Assembly: GCF_002234535.1 (NCBI RefSeq) | Contig: NZ_CP022521.1 | Location: 4,340,001-4,404,000 of the forward strand | Reading direction: 5' to 3' | Source: Actinoalloteichus hoggarensis | Lineage (GTDB): Bacteria > Actinomycetota > Actinomycetes > Mycobacteriales > Pseudonocardiaceae | Length of the DNA: 64,000 bases | Part shown: piece after piece, positions 53,666-64,000 of the stretch | How positions within the stretch are numbered: the stretch's first letter is position 1 | Layout of the letters: each line of letters opens with the position of its first letter | Translations under genes and position numbers: made by a program | The notes under the pieces: generated by a model | What the model was told of the DNA's origin: nothing | The model's database searches: none | Seen by the model: only the letters and a program-made list of their open reading frames with translations

Positions 53666-56308
53666 ATGCCGAACGCGGGCGTGTCCGCCGCAGGTAGTCC
53701 CGCCACGTTCGGCGATCTGCTGGTCGGCCGTCGCCGCGCGGCGCGGCTCACGCAGGAGGAGCTGGCGGCCCGCTCGGGACTGAGCGTCCGCGCGATCAGC
53801 GACATGGAACGCGGGCGGGCACTGGGCCCGCAGCGGCGCACCGTCGCCGCGCTGACCGAGGCCCTGGAACTGGATCCCGCGGCCGCCCGTGAGCTGGAGT
53901 CGGCGGCGAAGGCCGGGCGGCACCGCACCACCGCTCTGCCCGACGCGGCCCTCGGCGGTGCCGCGAATCTCCGCGGAACGTCGGCCCGCCGGAGTGCCTC
54001 GACGCCGCGGAACCCGTCTGCACAGCAGCCGGACGCCCCGGCGAACGGGCTCCCGACGAACAGGACTCGCACGAACGAGACACCGGCACCGGAGAAACCC
54101 GGGCACCAGCAGGCAGCCACGCAGCAGCCGCTGGAAGGCAGGTTCCGCTGCGATCTGCCGCCCGAGGTCGGCGATCTGACCGAGCGCGACGCCGAGCTGG
54201 ATCGGCTGCGGCGGTTGGCGGCGGCGACGGCGGCCGAGACCCATCGGGGGGCCACGGTCGTCGTGTTGTTCGGCGCTCCCGGCGTCGGCAAGACGACCCT
54301 TGCCGTGCGGGCGGGCCACGAACTCGCCGAGGAGTTCCCGGACGCCCGCTTCTTCGTCAACATGCGGGGCATGGACGCCGAGCGGCTGACCCCCGGACAG
54401 GCATTGGGCAGGCTGCTGCTCGCGCTCGGGGTGGAGCAGGCGCGGATTCCCGACGACACCGACGATCGGGCCGGTCTCTACCGGTCGCTGCTCCAGGAAC
54501 GGCGCGTGCTGCTGGTACTCGACAACGTCGGCGACGAGGCGCAGATCCGCCCGCTGCTGCCCAGCGGCCCCGGCTGCATGGTGCTGCTCACCAGCCGTCG
54601 GGTGCTCTCCGGACTCGAGTCGGTGCACCGGCTGCTCCTCGACGTCCTCTCGCCGTCGGGCGCCGTGGAGCTGCTCGAGTCGATCATCGGCTCGGAACGC
54701 GTCGCCGCGGAGCCCGCCGCCACGGCCAGGGTCGCCCAGCTGAGCGGGTGCCTGCCGTTGGCGCTGCGCATCGCGGGGAACCGCCTCGCGGGCAGGCCGC
54801 GCTGGAGCGTCGGCTACCTGGTGTCCGCCCTGTCGGATCAGCGGCGACGGCTGACGGCGCTGACCGCCGGGGACCTCCAGGTGCGGGCGGCGTTCGAGGT
54901 GTCCTACCAACAGTGTCACGCATCGGTGCGTCAGGTCTTCCGCAGGCTGTCGCTGTTGTCCGGCCCCGAGTTCGACGTCGACCAGGCCTCGGTGGTGGCC
55001 GAGACCGACCCGGACGTCGTCGAGGCGGTGCTGGAGGAACTGGTCGACGCGAGCCTGCTCGGCACCGCGCCGATCGGGGACCGCTACGTCCTGCACGACC
55101 TCCTCCGGCTGTTCGCAGGCGAGCGGCTCGCCGAGGAGGAGGCGCCCGGCACCGTGGAGCGGTTGTCGGGGCTGGTCACCGGTTGGTTCCTGCACAGCGG
55201 AATCCTGGCGGGCGGATTCTTCGTCCCGGCGGGTTTCGACGGTCATCCCGCGCCTCCGCCGCCACAGCCGGTGGCCGCGATCCACAGCCTGGACCAGGCA
55301 CGACACTGGCTGGACGCCGAGCAGGCGAACTGGCTGGCGGCGCTTCGTCAGGCCACCGAGGCGGGCAGGCACGCCGAGGTGCTGGCGCTGTGTCGGGCCC
55401 TGCACTGGTACTCCGACGTCCGCGCGGAGAGCGGCCTGTGGCAGGAGGTGTTCGCCCGCGGCGTCGCGGCGGCGCGGGCACTGCGCAGCCGGGCGGACGA
55501 GGCGGTGCAGCTCAACTATCTGGGTTGGGCGCTGAATCGGGCCGCGGGCAGGCAGGGACAGGCCTACGCCGTCCATCAGGAGGCGTTACGGGCCTCGCGG
55601 GACGTGGGCGACGAACGGGAGGAGGCCTGGTCGCTGCAGTACTGCGGGCGGACCAGGCTCGGCAGCGGTGAGCCGACGGCGGCCGTCGAGTACTTCGAGA
55701 GCGCCATGGAGCTGTTCCGGCGAGTGGACTACCGACTCGGCGAGCACATCACGGCGTCCTTCCTCGGTCTGGCGCTGCGCAGACTGGATCGGCTGCCGGA
55801 GGCCGTCCGGCTCCTGCACGAGGTCACCGAGTACTTCCGGGAGACGAGTGACGGAACACGGGACAACGCGCTGGCCGTCTCGCTGATGCGGCTCGGCGAG
55901 ACCCTGGAGTTCGCCCGGCTGTTCAGCGAGGCCCACGAGGCCTTCCGTGAGGCGGAGGCGCTGTCCGTCCGGCTGGACGTTCCGCTCCAGGCGGCGGAGG
56001 CGGCCTTCGGCTGCGGCCGGACCGCCGAGGAGCTGGGCGAGCCCGCCGCCGCCCATCGTCATCTCGTCACCGCCGCGGCGGGCTTCGCGGCGGTGAACGA
56101 CGATCCGGGTCGTAACCGGGTCCTGCGTCGCATCGTCATGCTCATCGAGACGGCAGGACCCGCGGCGGGCCGGACGGCGCGGCAGGAGACGCTGGCGTTG
56201 CTCGACGGGGTGGACGGCCAGACCGCGGCCGAACTGGCCGCGTTGATCTCCGGGCACCGCCGACGAGCCGCGGCGCACCGACCGGTCGACGAGGAGACGG
56301 CGAGCTGA
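53666..56308 (+). CDS. XRE - NB-ARC - TPR regulator (AfsR-like STAND protein)
   Basis: An 880-aa signalling ATPase. An XRE helix-turn-helix is at about 14-70 (RRRAARLTQEELAARSGLSVRAISDMERGRAL), then a ~90-residue disordered linker, then the NB-ARC ATPase (Walker A GAPGVGKTT 203-211, Walker B RVLLVLDNV, GCLPLALRIAGNRL), a winged-helix segment (YVLHDLLRLFAGERLAEEE) and a long TPR superhelix to the end. Such proteins switch antibiotic or development genes in response to a ligand bound by the TPRs. ATG 53666 starts just before the HTH. No biosynthetic cluster is adjacent, so the target is unclear. Confidence 0.9.
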   Translation: MPNAGVSAAGSPATFGDLLVGRRRAARLTQEELAARSGLSVRAISDMERGRALGPQRRTVAALTEALELDPAAARELESAAKAGRHRTTALPDAALGGAANLRGTSARRSASTPRNPSAQQPDAPANGLPTNRTRTNETPAPEKPGHQQAATQQPLEGRFRCDLPPEVGDLTERDAELDRLRRLAAATAAETHRGATVVVLFGAPGVGKTTLAVRAGHELAEEFPDARFFVNMRGMDAERLTPGQALGRLLLALGVEQARIPDDTDDRAGLYRSLLQERRVLLVLDNVGDEAQIRPLLPSGPGCMVLLTSRRVLSGLESVHRLLLDVLSPSGAVELLESIIGSERVAAEPAATARVAQLSGCLPLALRIAGNRLAGRPRWSVGYLVSALSDQRRRLTALTAGDLQVRAAFEVSYQQCHASVRQVFRRLSLLSGPEFDVDQASVVAETDPDVVEAVLEELVDASLLGTAPIGDRYVLHDLLRLFAGERLAEEEAPGTVERLSGLVTGWFLHSGILAGGFFVPAGFDGHPAPPPPQPVAAIHSLDQARHWLDAEQANWLAALRQATEAGRHAEVLALCRALHWYSDVRAESGLWQEVFARGVAAARALRSRADEAVQLNYLGWALNRAAGRQGQAYAVHQEALRASRDVGDEREEAWSLQYCGRTRLGSGEPTAAVEYFESAMELFRRVDYRLGEHITASFLGLALRRLDRLPEAVRLLHEVTEYFRETSDGTRDNALAVSLMRLGETLEFARLFSEAHEAFREAEALSVRLDVPLQAAEAAFGCGRTAEELGEPAAAHRHLVTAAAGFAAVNDDPGRNRVLRRIVMLIETAGPAAGRTARQETLALLDGVDGQTAAELAALISGHRRRAAAHRPVDEETAS

Positions 56309-57369
56309 CCGAGGTCGGCGCCGCGGGACTCCGAACGAGGCGCCGGTCCGCCCTGAGGAGCTCGCGCCGACCGGCCGAGCGGGCGGCGCACCGGCGCACG
56401 AGTCACCGTCGCGTGCGACGGCGATCGACCGCCCGTGTTCCCCCGCCCGTCACCGCAGAGGACCGGGCAGGGCAGGGCCGAGGCCGCACGGGGACGGCCG
56501 CGCCGGGACGGGACGCGCGGGACGACGTGCCCCCGCCGCGCGTCGATTGCGAGTACCCTCCTCGCACATCCGCCTGATCCGGACGGGTTCGCGGCCCCGC
56601 GCGCGAAGTCGACGACGAGCCGCGGCGTCGCCGGTGCACCAGCCCGGCCCGGACTGCCGGCTCCCCACGTCGGTGGGGGTGTTCCAGGGTGGGTCGGGGT
56701 CCTCCTCGACGTTCCTGACAGGCCCCTCCCCACACTCGTGGGGGTGCTCCGGTCTCGCCGAGCGCACCGTGGCATTCGTCCACATCGCCCTCCTCACGGT
56801 CGTGGGGGTGTTCGGCGGGCGACACGGGCAGCCTGCCCGACTTCGCCGGACCCGATTCCGCGGACGGTGATCGCCACACCTCGGTGCGGTGCGACGGGTA
56901 CGCGCCACGAGGTACGACGCGACGGGACACGACGTGCCAGAGCACCCCACGAACCGGGCGGTCCGACGCCGACCGACCCCTCCGGGTCGCCGCGTCCGGC
57001 ACCCGCCCGGTCAGTCGTGCGACCCACACGGACACCACCCGGACCGGCCGGACCGCCGACCACGTCACTCCCTCTTCGGGTGACCTTCATCGGTCGTCCC
57101 GTGGAGGGTCCCCCGCGAGCGCGGCCGGCCCTGTGACCCCCGGGCATCGTGGCGGCGCCGGCGACGAAACGGGCGCTTCGGACAGGGTCGACCTCGAGAT
57201 TTCACCGCCGCCGTCCGAACGGCGCCCCGGACGGTCGTACCGGGGGCTGCCTCGGGCGACGTCCACGCTGAGTCACGGCACGTCGGATAGGCCGTTCCCC
57301 CGAACGAGCACTGGCCCAGAAGGACCACAATGAGTACCCTCCGTGACATAAGATCACCGGGAGGTCACT
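56309..57369. other. 1.06-kb gene-free region containing CRISPR-like repeats
   Basis: No gene recognised; frames here are Arg/Pro-rich, one of them reading the EHPH pattern that the CRISPR repeats encode on the minus strand. The degenerate array at 56658-56814 is the main feature. Just before the DUF397 gene, a taagat box (57349-57354) could be a -10. Confidence 0.6.
56658..56814. CRISPR. Degenerate type I-E-like CRISPR array fragment, three repeats
   Basis: 28-nt repeats at 56658-56685, 56723-56750 and 56787-56814 share CTCCcCAC, two or three variable bases, CGTGGGGGTG and tTCC; the half-palindromic CCCAC/GTGGG core is that of actinobacterial type I-E repeats. Spacers are 37 and 36 nt, longer than the usual 32-33. 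Repeats have diverged from each other, and no cas genes, leader or integration machinery are in the window. Confidence 0.75.
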
Positions 57370-57984: not shown

Positions 57985-59042
57985 GCGACGTCGCCCCGCC
58001 GGCCCCGCCCGAACCGCTCAGGCCGCCCTGCACCACCCGAGTCGCTCCGAACGCCTCGGCCCGTCGCACCGGTTCGGTCGTGTTCATCGCCGGTCGCCGT
58101 TCGTAGTGGACACCTCGGGACCTCTCCGCCGTCCGCGAGTGCGTCGCCCGGGGCCTGCCGCGCCGCCGCAGACCGGTCGGCCGGTCCGCCCGCCGTACTC
58201 CGGGACCTGCCGCGCCGCCGCCGCGATCCCGGCTCGGTCCTGACGGCCTCGCCGACGGCGGAGGAGCGTCGTCCGCGATGCGACACCGATCGGCCGGACG
58301 CCATGCCGCGCGGCGACCCCACAGCGTGGTCGTGACGGTCGACGGAACGCGCCCCGAGCAGGCGGGCAGGCCGGCGGCGCCGTACCGGGCGGCCGCGTGC
58401 CGCCGCGCCGACCACGGGCTCCGATCACGGGGTCCGATCCTGAGGTCCGGCCGGCCCCCGCCGAGGCGTCTCCGGGGCGGCGGCCCGTCGTGCACGGGGG
58501 GCCGAACATCGCGCTCGCCTCCTCTGCCAGACTCGACGCCGACGATCGCGGTGGTCGAGTCCGCCGCCGTCGTCGACTCTCCTCACATCGGTGGGGCGGC
58601 CTCACCTCGGTGGGGCACCGGGACGCGAAGGCCGCACCGTCTCCCCACGACAGTGGAGGTGCTCCGGGCTGACGCGCTCGTCGCAGGACCGACCGCGTCC
58701 TCCTCACACCATCCGTGGGGGTGCACCGCCGTCGGGCTCCGAGGAACTCGGTCACCCCTGGGCTTCCCCACATCCGTGGGGGTTCACCCCGCGGCGGGCA
58801 GCAGGCAGGCAGCCCTTCCCCACCTGCGGTCGTGGGGGTGTTCCGCACTGCTCGCCTGCGGAAAACGAGCACCGCGGTCGACCGCCGGGTCGCCGATCGA
58901 GGAGTACGGCGTCGGCACCCGAGCGGTCATGCTCGGGTTCGCGGGGCCGGGCCGTCGATCGGCGTCCCCGTTCCCGCCGCCGTCGTCGCCGGGTGCCTCG
59001 GGACGGCCTCGCGGTGAGACGGGCAGGGCCGCCCGGGCCGGA
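57985..59042. other. 1.06-kb gene-free region containing the second CRISPR-like array
   Basis: No gene recognised. The degenerate array at 58577-58843 lies in the middle; the flanks are GC-rich without visible signals. Confidence 0.6.
58577..58843. CRISPR. Degenerate type I-E-like CRISPR array, five repeats
   Basis: Repeats end at about 58604, 58665, 58727, 58787 and 58843, close to the 61-nt period of type I-E arrays. They start near 58577, 58638, 58696, 58760 and 58811 and share CTCCcCAC...GTGGGGGTG in the same orientation as the array at 56658. Repeat 1 has lost its 3' half, repeat 2 reads cagtggaggtg, repeats 3 and 5 carry small insertions. Spacers are about 23-33 nt. The steady period with eroded repeats points to a dead array. 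No cas genes nearby. Confidence 0.78.
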
Positions 59043-61184: not shown

Positions 61185-62513
61185 TCAACGACCGCCCGGC
61201 GAGGTCAGCAGCCCGGCCGCCGAGTGGACGGTGAGCGTCACGGGGCGTCCGGACAGCACGGCGACGGCCGTCCGCACGCCCGAAGGCCCGTCGGCGGCGA
61301 GCATGGTGACCGCGCTCGGCGGCGGTACGACCGAGCGCGGGACGCCCGTGCCCCAGTCGAGCACGGCGGGCGGGAGGCCGGGCGCGGTCACGACGATCTC
61401 GCCCATCGGCACCGCCTGCCCCACTCCGAGCGCCTTGAGCGCGGCCTCCTTCCGGGTCCAGTAGCCGATGATCAGCGCCGCCCGGTCGGCCGGGTCCGCC
61501 TCGTCGACTCGGGCCCGCTCCGACGGGGCCAATGCCGAGTCCAGCAGCGGGCCCCAGTGCCTGCCGCTCGTCGCGGACTCCGCGTCGACGCCGATCGGCG
61601 CCGAGCCGCACACGGCGAGCACCGCCCAGTCGCCCGCGTAGGCCAGTGAGAACTCCGGACCGTCGCCGTCCCCGGCGAGACGCGGCTTGCCGTGCGGTCC
61701 CCCGCAGTGTCCGCAGTCTCGACGGAGGCGCAGCCGCCCCGACGGTGTGCCGGTGTGCGCGGCGAGCAGCGTCCTGATCATCGCCCGCCCGAGGAGGTAG
61801 CGTCGCCGGTCCTCGTCCCGGCGCAGGCCGTGGTATCGGGCCGTCTCCTCGGCGTCGAGGAGGCCGGCCGCCGCCCGGCCGACGTCGTCCGTCCTCGCCC
61901 ACCACAGCTGCACCTCGTCCGCGCCGAGGGCGGGCACGACGGTCCCGGCCGCGCCGTGCCGGGGCGGGTCCGTCGCCGCGCAGCCTCGGCTCAGCGGGCG
62001 GTCCGGCACGACGCGGAAGAGTCCGGCGTCCGCGGGGAGTCGACCCGCGCCTGCCAGCAGGGCGGCGGCGCCGCGCTCGACGTCGCCGAGCTCCTCGACG
62101 GAGAGCTGGGTCAGCAGCATCTGGCGATGCTCCCGGCCCGCGGTGGCGATGTCGTCCAGCAACGCCCCGCCTTCCGGGGTGAGGGACAGCCGCCGCACCC
62201 GTCGATCTCGAGAGTCGGGCACACGGCTGACCAGTCCCCGGTCGAGCAGCCGGTCGATGAGTCCGGTCGCCGTGGCCAGGCTGACGCCGAGCTGGTCCGC
62301 GAGGGCATGCCCCGCGATCCCGTCGTCGAACGCCAGGCAGAGCAGCACCCGGAACTGCTGCATGGTGATTCCGCTGTCCAGCAGCGGATGCGATCTGACT
62401 CGGACGGCGCGGCGCATGAGCTCGTCATGATGCCGTTCGACGGCGTCGATCAGTCGGTGCCGTTCCTCGTCGATCCGTTCCTGGTCGATCCGCACCGCGC
62501 GATCCTGCCCCAT
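61185..62513 (-). CDS. MarR regulator fused to a Sfp-type 4'-phosphopantetheinyl transferase
   Basis: A single 442-aa ORF with two unrelated domains. Residues 20-145 are a MarR winged helix (TMQQFRVLLCLAFDDGIAGHALADQLGVSLATATGLIDRLLDRGLVSRVPDSRDRRVRRLSLTPEG). Residues 195-430 are a PPTase that attaches the phosphopantetheine arm of CoA to carrier proteins of fatty-acid, polyketide or peptide synthases: DEVQLWWART, CGHCGGPHGKP, GVDAE (308-312) and WTRKEAALK (352-360) are the family motifs. The linker (146-195) is Ala/Pro/Arg-rich. ATG 62513 has only a weak ribosome-binding site. It faces a divergent RND pump gene, the usual place for a MarR repressor. I know of no described protein with this layout. 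Confidence 0.88.
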   Translation of the reverse strand: MGQDRAVRIDQERIDEERHRLIDAVERHHDELMRRAVRVRSHPLLDSGITMQQFRVLLCLAFDDGIAGHALADQLGVSLATATGLIDRLLDRGLVSRVPDSRDRRVRRLSLTPEGGALLDDIATAGREHRQMLLTQLSVEELGDVERGAAALLAGAGRLPADAGLFRVVPDRPLSRGCAATDPPRHGAAGTVVPALGADEVQLWWARTDDVGRAAAGLLDAEETARYHGLRRDEDRRRYLLGRAMIRTLLAAHTGTPSGRLRLRRDCGHCGGPHGKPRLAGDGDGPEFSLAYAGDWAVLAVCGSAPIGVDAESATSGRHWGPLLDSALAPSERARVDEADPADRAALIIGYWTRKEAALKALGVGQAVPMGEIVVTAPGLPPAVLDWGTGVPRSVVPPPSAVTMLAADGPSGVRTAVAVLSGRPVTLTVHSAAGLLTSPGGR

Positions 62514-62544
62514 CGCGGACGTCCCCGCCGCGGCTCCCCCGATT

Positions 62545-62580
62545 CGGACAAATACTATGTGCGAGGCTAACTATTCACCC
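62545..62580. promoter_or_regulatory. AT-rich divergent promoter region, candidate MarR operator
   Basis: The 106-bp space between the MarR-PPTase and RND genes has an AT-rich core with tactat and taactatt, and an imperfect inverted repeat of aata.../...tatt halves centred near 62563. It is a good position for MarR binding that represses both directions. Confidence 0.45.
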
Positions 62581-62619
62581 TTTTACCTCCTGATCCGCAC
62601 CTGACCGGAGGAATCACCC

Positions 62620-64000
62620 GTGACCTGGCTTGCTCGACTCAGCCTGGCCAATCGAGCACTGGTCGCGCTGGCGTCGGTGCTCATCCTCGGCTTCGGCGTC
62701 TTCGCGACCACCTCACTCAGACAAGAGCTCGTCCCCTCGATGGAGATCCCGGTCGCCGCCGTGGTCGCCCCGTACCCCGGCGCCACGCCGCAGGTGGTGG
62801 AGGACCAGGTCACCGAGCCGCTGGAGACCGCCGCCACCGGCGTCCGAGGTGTGGTGGGCACCTCGGCGACCAGCAGCGGCGGCATGTCCGTCATCACCGT
62901 CGAACTCGAGTTCGGCACCGACCTCGGCGGCGCCCAGCAGGATCTCGCGCAGGCGGTGAACCGGGTCGCGAACGGACTCCCCGACGAGGTCCAGCCGACC
63001 GTCATCACCGGCAGCGTCGACGACCTGCCCGTGCTTCAGCTCTCCGCCGCGGCCGAGGCCGACGAACAGGACACCGCCGCGGTGCTGCGCGACGACGTCG
63101 TGCCGCTGCTGGAGGGCGTGTCCGGGGTCCGCGAGGTGAGCCTGACCGGCGTGGCCGACCACGTGGTCACCGTCGATCTGGACCCCGCCGCCCTGGCGGC
63201 GCACGGCATCGCACTGCCCTCGGTGCTCCAGGCGTTACAGGGCGCCGGGGCCGGCGTGCCCGCGGGCGCCCTCACCCAGAACGGCGAGACCCTCTCGGTG
63301 TCCGTCGGCGCGCCCGTCGACACCGTCGAGGACCTTCGCGAGGTCCGGCTCCCAGCACAGGAGGGCGGCGCCGTCCGGCTGGGCGACGTCGCCGAGGTGA
63401 CCAGCGCCCCCGCCGAGGCCACCGGCTACTCGCGCACCGACGGGCTGCCCAGCATCGGCATCGGGGTCACCAAGACACCCGAGGGCAACACCGTGGAGAT
63501 CTCCGAGGAGGTCCGCGCGCTGCTTCCCGAGATCGAGCGGCTGCTCGGCGAGTCCGGCCAGGTCAGCGTCGTCTTCGATCAGGCGCCGTTCATCGAGCAG
63601 TCGATCCACGACCTCACGGTGGAGGGCATGCTCGGCCTGGTCTTCGCCATCGTGATCATCCTGCTGTTCCTGCTGTCGCTGCGCTCGACGCTGGTCACCG
63701 CCGTCTCCATCCCCCTGTCGGTGCTCATGGCTTTGATCAGCCTCTACGTCACCGACTACTCGCTGAACATCCTGACCCTCGGCGCACTCACGGCCGCCGT
63801 CGGGCGGGTCGTGGACGACTCGATCGTCGTCATCGAGAACATCAAACGACATCTGGGCTACGGCGAGCCCAAACGCCAGGCGATCATCACCGCCGTCCGC
63901 GAGGTGGCGGGCGCGATCACCTCGTCGACCATCACCACGGTCGCGGTGTTCCTGCCGATCGCGCTGGTCGGCGGCCAGGTCGGCGAGCTGTTCCGTCCCT
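62620..64000 (+). CDS. RND-family efflux pump, AcrB/HAE1-like (cut by the window end)
   Basis: The first 460 codons of a hydrophobe/amphiphile efflux RND transporter. The N-terminal membrane helix (ANRALVALASVLILGFGVFATTSL), the porter domain (EIPVAAVVAPYPGATPQVVEDQVTEPLE, DLGGAQQDLAQAVNRV) and membrane helices from LTVEGMLGLVFAIVIILLFLLSL onward are in order, with the family motif GRVVDDSIVVIENIKRHL (the proton-relay Asp pair) visible. GTG 62620 has CGGAGGAA upstream. The protein would run to about 1000 residues. In a gram-positive host such pumps act without an outer-membrane channel. Its divergent MarR-PPTase neighbour is the likely regulator. Confidence 0.9.
   Translation, partial: MTWLARLSLANRALVALASVLILGFGVFATTSLRQELVPSMEIPVAAVVAPYPGATPQVVEDQVTEPLETAATGVRGVVGTSATSSGGMSVITVELEFGTDLGGAQQDLAQAVNRVANGLPDEVQPTVITGSVDDLPVLQLSAAAEADEQDTAAVLRDDVVPLLEGVSGVREVSLTGVADHVVTVDLDPAALAAHGIALPSVLQALQGAGAGVPAGALTQNGETLSVSVGAPVDTVEDLREVRLPAQEGGAVRLGDVAEVTSAPAEATGYSRTDGLPSIGIGVTKTPEGNTVEISEEVRALLPEIERLLGESGQVSVVFDQAPFIEQSIHDLTVEGMLGLVFAIVIILLFLLSLRSTLVTAVSIPLSVLMALISLYVTDYSLNILTLGALTAAVGRVVDDSIVVIENIKRHLGYGEPKRQAIITAVREVAGAITSSTITTVAVFLPIALVGGQVGELFRP

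Follow-up and report, generated by a model that had tools for sequence, protein, structure and literature searches.

The gene examined here raises the question of whether a MarR-type DNA-binding domain and a phosphopantetheinyl transferase (PPTase), joined in one polypeptide, form a protein that both represses transcription and activates carrier proteins, as the first-pass annotation of the locus had proposed. The gene lies in a stretch of 64,000 nucleotides from Actinoalloteichus hoggarensis (the window), and its features are listed in Table 1. It is one uninterrupted frame of 442 codons in which a MarR domain is joined through a disordered linker to a domain with the PPTase fold, and it is transcribed divergently from the gene of an AcrB-type RND permease. 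Translation probably starts at the GTG at 62495 and not at the ATG at 62513; the AGGAT upstream of the GTG is kept in all three species that carry the fusion.

Table 1. Features of the fusion locus and its shared promoter, in window coordinates.
Feature	Position	Strand	Basis
MarR-PPTase fusion gene	61185..62513	-	ORF, Pfam, orthologues
MarR domain, residues 1-158, winged helix-turn-helix 49-106	62040..62513	-	Pfam, fold, dN/dS
Linker, residues 159-196	61926..62039	-	model, dN/dS
PPTase-fold domain, AASDHPPT/Sfp type, residues 197-442, degenerate	61188..61925	-	Pfam, motifs, fold
A291-Y292-A293, replacing Ser/Thr-His-Ser of relatives (Sfp S89-H90-S91)	61635..61643	-	alignment
D310-A-E312, Mg-binding pair (Sfp D107, E109), retained	61578..61586	-	alignment
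W352-T-R-K-E356-A-A-L-K360 (Sfp E151, K155), retained in window species	61434..61460	-	alignment
Divergent intergenic promoter region, common to fusion gene and pump	62514..62619	.	promoter comparison
Operator-like site GCTAACTATTCAC, imperfect GCTAA-N3-TTAGC palindrome	62566..62578	+	promoter comparison, genome scan
AcrB/HAE-1-type RND permease, GTG start, continues past window end	62620..64000	+	PF00873, 4.1e-114

According to the Pfam profiles, residues 49-106 match the MarR family (PF01047; 1.6e-13, 50.7 bits against a cut-off of 24.6), residues 205-301 match the AASDHPPT N-terminal domain (PF22624; 1.1e-6, above the cut-off), and residues 306-376 match the ACPS domain (PF01648; 1.6e-11, 44.7 bits against a cut-off of 25). 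A three-row alignment gave a poor AlphaFold2 model (pLDDT 57.8), and a deeper one of 46 rows, in which the fusions were combined with MarRs and PPTases that stand alone, was used instead. In the resulting model both domains fold (mean pLDDT 86.4), and residues 165-189 of the linker are predicted to be disordered. Residues 12-160 of the model resemble the MarR-family structures Rv0880 (Z 14.8), MepR (14.7), MarR (14.5) and MexR (13.9), and the N-terminal half has the winged helix-turn-helix, the PF01047 match and the fold of a MarR protein. Residues 201-438 align with Sfp (4mrt; Z 23.9, 217 residues aligned at rmsd 2.3) and residues 194-442 with human AASDHPPT (2cg5; Z 22.8); the C-terminal half has the two-lobed fold of the Sfp-type (group II) PPTases. 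The single frame with its MarR and PPTase halves and the full MarR domain described in the first-pass annotation were borne out, as was the divergence from an RND pump, whose PF00873 permease keeps this arrangement in three species.

An open frame proves little at the local GC content, at which the linker by itself would lack stops with a probability of 89%, and the argument for a genuine fusion is therefore carried by the orthologues. A search for the fusion in other genomes, which the annotation had suggested as a check, found the same in-frame fusion in both of the other species of the genus that were compared (73% and 53% identity), and in all three species an orthologous RND permease is divergent from it (84-91% identity between permeases). 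The notion that assembly or sequencing errors joined two genes can be set aside with near certainty: nothing was found in its favor, and the same fusion occurs in three separate genomes, within one contig in each. The annotation had also stated that a stop or frameshift between the domains, or orthologues encoded as two genes, would speak against the fusion. Within the genus there is neither a frameshift nor a split, but outside the genus the MarR is separate in every case read. Translation of the PPTase half from an internal start of its own was considered and rejected; the linkers of the three species share no start codon preceded by a Shine-Dalgarno sequence.

Some features of the surroundings are recorded for their own sake. 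In each of the three species of the genus, a DUF4097 protein is encoded 3′ of the RND permease gene (L038 11038-11751, past the window end). A STAND-type regulator of 880 aa, with an N-terminal helix-turn-helix, an NB-ARC ATPase and TPR repeats, is encoded at 53666-56308 (+), and a gene judged by eye to be similar lies close to the G001 fusion (L037 15544-17562). Imperfect palindromic repeats, CCCCAC...GTGGGGGTGTTC, form two groups (56649-56813 and 58629-58843) at a spacing of 56-65 bases; judged from the repeats, they look like a degenerate type I-E-like CRISPR array.

Outside the genus, we read 27 divergent pairs of a MarR gene and a related RND permease gene, and every MarR is a single-domain protein. 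These stand-alone MarRs share with the fusion the divergent arrangement and a related promoter site but, unlike the fusion, none has a PPTase domain; those from Actinomycetes have about 110-250 residues and are about 38-53% identical to the MarR half, and the permeases of the pairs are 48-60% identical. A PPTase, where present, sits away from the pair, and in the genus g24 a separate 168-aa MarR gene is divergent from the pump with the PPTase far away. A conserved PPTase gene downstream of the stand-alone MarRs was sought as the source of the fusion and was not found; the neighbours checked encode a short-chain dehydrogenase or an FhuF-like protein. Overlapping samples at four taxonomic ranks (family, 346; order, 299; class, 395; phylum, 396), with genome handles up to at least G1300, showed no other MarR-PPTase fusion; for each genome the survey scored only a few top candidates, with an E-value limit of 1e-15 in the family and 1e-20 otherwise, and unrelated MarR-PPTase fusions could escape it. 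A scan of genome contigs, from which the own and near genomes were possibly excluded, found no relatives. Two traits of the pairs are noted separately. In the family f31 (L131-L139), the stand-alone MarR gene is followed, in the same orientation, by a gene of 257-263 aa that encodes a short-chain dehydrogenase where scanned. In several species of the genus g5 (L058-L064), the RND permease reaches 1283-1413 aa, compared with 1020-1040 aa in the genus of the window, and these longer permeases may bear a C-terminal extension.

The shared promoter contains a candidate operator. A site resembling GCTAA-N3-TTAGC with at most two mismatches occurs in 25 of the 28 shared promoters compared with 2.9% of shuffled promoters, a count made with a consensus derived from these promoters themselves. 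In its GCTAACWATTCAC form (at most one mismatch), the site occurs a single time in each of the three genomes with the fusion, within the fusion-pump promoter. Conserved divergence combined with a single predicted palindromic operator per genome is the pattern of local regulation by a MarR protein, and the occurrence once per genome supports a local and narrow regulon consisting of the pump and the regulator gene itself. MexR, MepR and E. coli MarR similarly combine the winged helix-turn-helix fold (Z 13.9-14.7) with divergent or adjacent efflux genes and a palindromic promoter site; however, they are single-domain proteins of about 140-150 aa, whereas the fusion adds a 245-residue extension with the PPTase fold. 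The repressor role proposed in the annotation gains support from the conserved arrangement with the pump and from the operator-like site, and we suggest that the MarR-type protein would repress both its own gene and the divergent permease gene from their shared promoter.

The annotated PPTase with all motifs did not survive comparison with its relatives. The S/T-H-S motif that precedes the GxDxE strand is absent, being AYA, AYA and ASA in the three fusions, and the column of Sfp H90, which is His in 54/54 stand-alone relatives, holds Tyr, Tyr and Ser. Searches of the open-access literature yielded no account of what Sfp His90 does, and the role of this column is therefore taken solely from its conservation. 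Other motif residues are intact in the window species (D310, E312, K355, E356, K360 and HGKP), and the Mg-binding Asp and the third-position Glu are both present in G000 and G002, with Ala in place of this Glu in G001. With these residues intact, activity of the window protein is conceivable even with Tyr in place of His. The Sfp E151 column is Glu in all 54 stand-alone relatives and is unchanged in the window species and G002; G001 has Ala there and has lost HGKP as well. In SchPPT, E151A and D105A each abolish activity in vitro and in vivo (PMC4103896). Because G001 carries at the E151 position the substitution that kills SchPPT, its PPTase domain is very probably catalytically dead. Among 41 conserved PPTase columns, the fusions keep 33, 34 and 25 (the last in G001), compared with a median of 39 and a minimum of 33 in stand-alone PPTases; the block SGRxxGPLxDSxLAP and the fold core are kept in all three. 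Compared with the PPTases of Sfp and AASDHPPT type, the fusion has the same whole-domain fold and, in the window species, the Mg-binding Asp and Glu and the Lys, but it differs in that the SHS His is replaced, the essential Glu is replaced in one species and a repressor is attached. Given the loss of motif residues, the PPTase half most likely no longer activates carrier proteins, and catalysis has probably been lost in the window species as well.

Selective constraint differs between the parts of the gene. In three species pairs, dN/dS is 0.17, 0.21 and 0.15 for the MarR half, 0.39 (95% bootstrap 0.28-0.54), 0.67 (0.50-0.92) and 0.40 (0.27-0.54) for the PPTase half, and 0.64-0.95 for the linker. 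For comparison, the RND pump has 0.18-0.20, and an EntD-type PPTase encoded separately in the fusion genomes has 0.20-0.26. The MarR half is therefore constrained on par with the pump; constraint on the PPTase half is relaxed, but its dN/dS stays below 1, and its GC3 is 0.93. In the tree, the three fusions form one clade (SH-aLRT 99) with long branches, and their nearest neighbours are stand-alone PPTases of g24, another genus of the family (88), a placement that indicates one fusion event. The window's genome also encodes AcpS, an EntD-type PPTase and a 590-aa protein with a PPTase domain, in addition to one weak match, and with these further PPTases a loss of activity in the fusion would be tolerated.

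We consider it somewhat probable that the protein is a self-regulating repressor of the RND permease whose PPTase tail was gained once and is now a non-catalytic accessory domain that tunes repression. In the genus ancestor, a single event would have attached a PPTase domain of the AASDHPPT/Sfp type to the C-terminus of a stand-alone repressor, and this domain would have kept its fold and lost residues that are needed for, or invariant in, working PPTases. The folded domain would have been retained, most plausibly to bind CoA, an acyl-CoA or phosphopantetheine compound, or a carrier protein, and binding of such a ligand would tune the repression of the pump. A working PPTase attached to the repressor, by which the activation of carrier proteins would be coupled to the control of efflux, would fit the intact D310, E312, E356 and K360 of G000 and G002, the conserved fold and a domain dN/dS below 1. 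Nevertheless, such a bifunctional protein is quite improbable, and the annotated carrier-protein activation is difficult to uphold: none of the three fusions keeps the invariant His, E356 and HGKP are gone in G001, the PPTase half is under relaxed constraint, the genome has other PPTases, the lone operator-like site of each genome is at the pump, and no adjacent PKS or NRPS genes were recognised.

The relaxed constraint may also be read as slow decay of a PPTase that was captured by chance read-through, with only the MarR half being of importance. The raised dN/dS and the loss of catalytic residues, strongest in G001, and the long branches in the tree agree with this explanation, which we regard as unlikely because the upper limits of dN/dS all remain below 1, about 245 codons stay open in three species, a high GC3 is maintained in the domain, the fold core and blocks such as that named above are common to all three fusions, and the fused state has been shared since the genus ancestor. 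With regard to the accessory domain that we favor, we propose only tentatively, as a possibility that we would not call probable, that it is a pseudoenzyme sensor that binds CoA, acyl-CoA or a carrier protein without transfer, and signals to the MarR half, so that the pump would follow the CoA or carrier-protein state of the cell. These compounds are natural ligand candidates because the PPTase fold binds CoA, acyl-CoA and carrier proteins; CoA had also been put forward in the first-pass annotation, and a ligand of the CoA type is conceivable.

Both halves of the protein belong to known families; what is new is that they are combined and that the PPTase half has apparently been converted. A search of the open-access literature found no characterised example of a MarR-PPTase fusion. 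The Rhodococcus regulator CouR, a plain MarR dimer, is not known to have a PPTase domain and differs in this from the fusion. CouR responds to p-coumaroyl-CoA and is thus a precedent for a CoA-thioester ligand of a MarR regulator, the kind of sensing proposed here (PMC4737184). Among the genomes sampled, the fusion is carried by three species only. Nature has provided a test series in the form of stand-alone repressors in many genera, two fusions that keep most catalytic residues and one fusion without the essential Glu. If our reading is true, a PPTase has been turned into the regulatory domain of a transcription factor, and the fusion could tie efflux in actinomycetes that produce antibiotics to their CoA or secondary-metabolite status.
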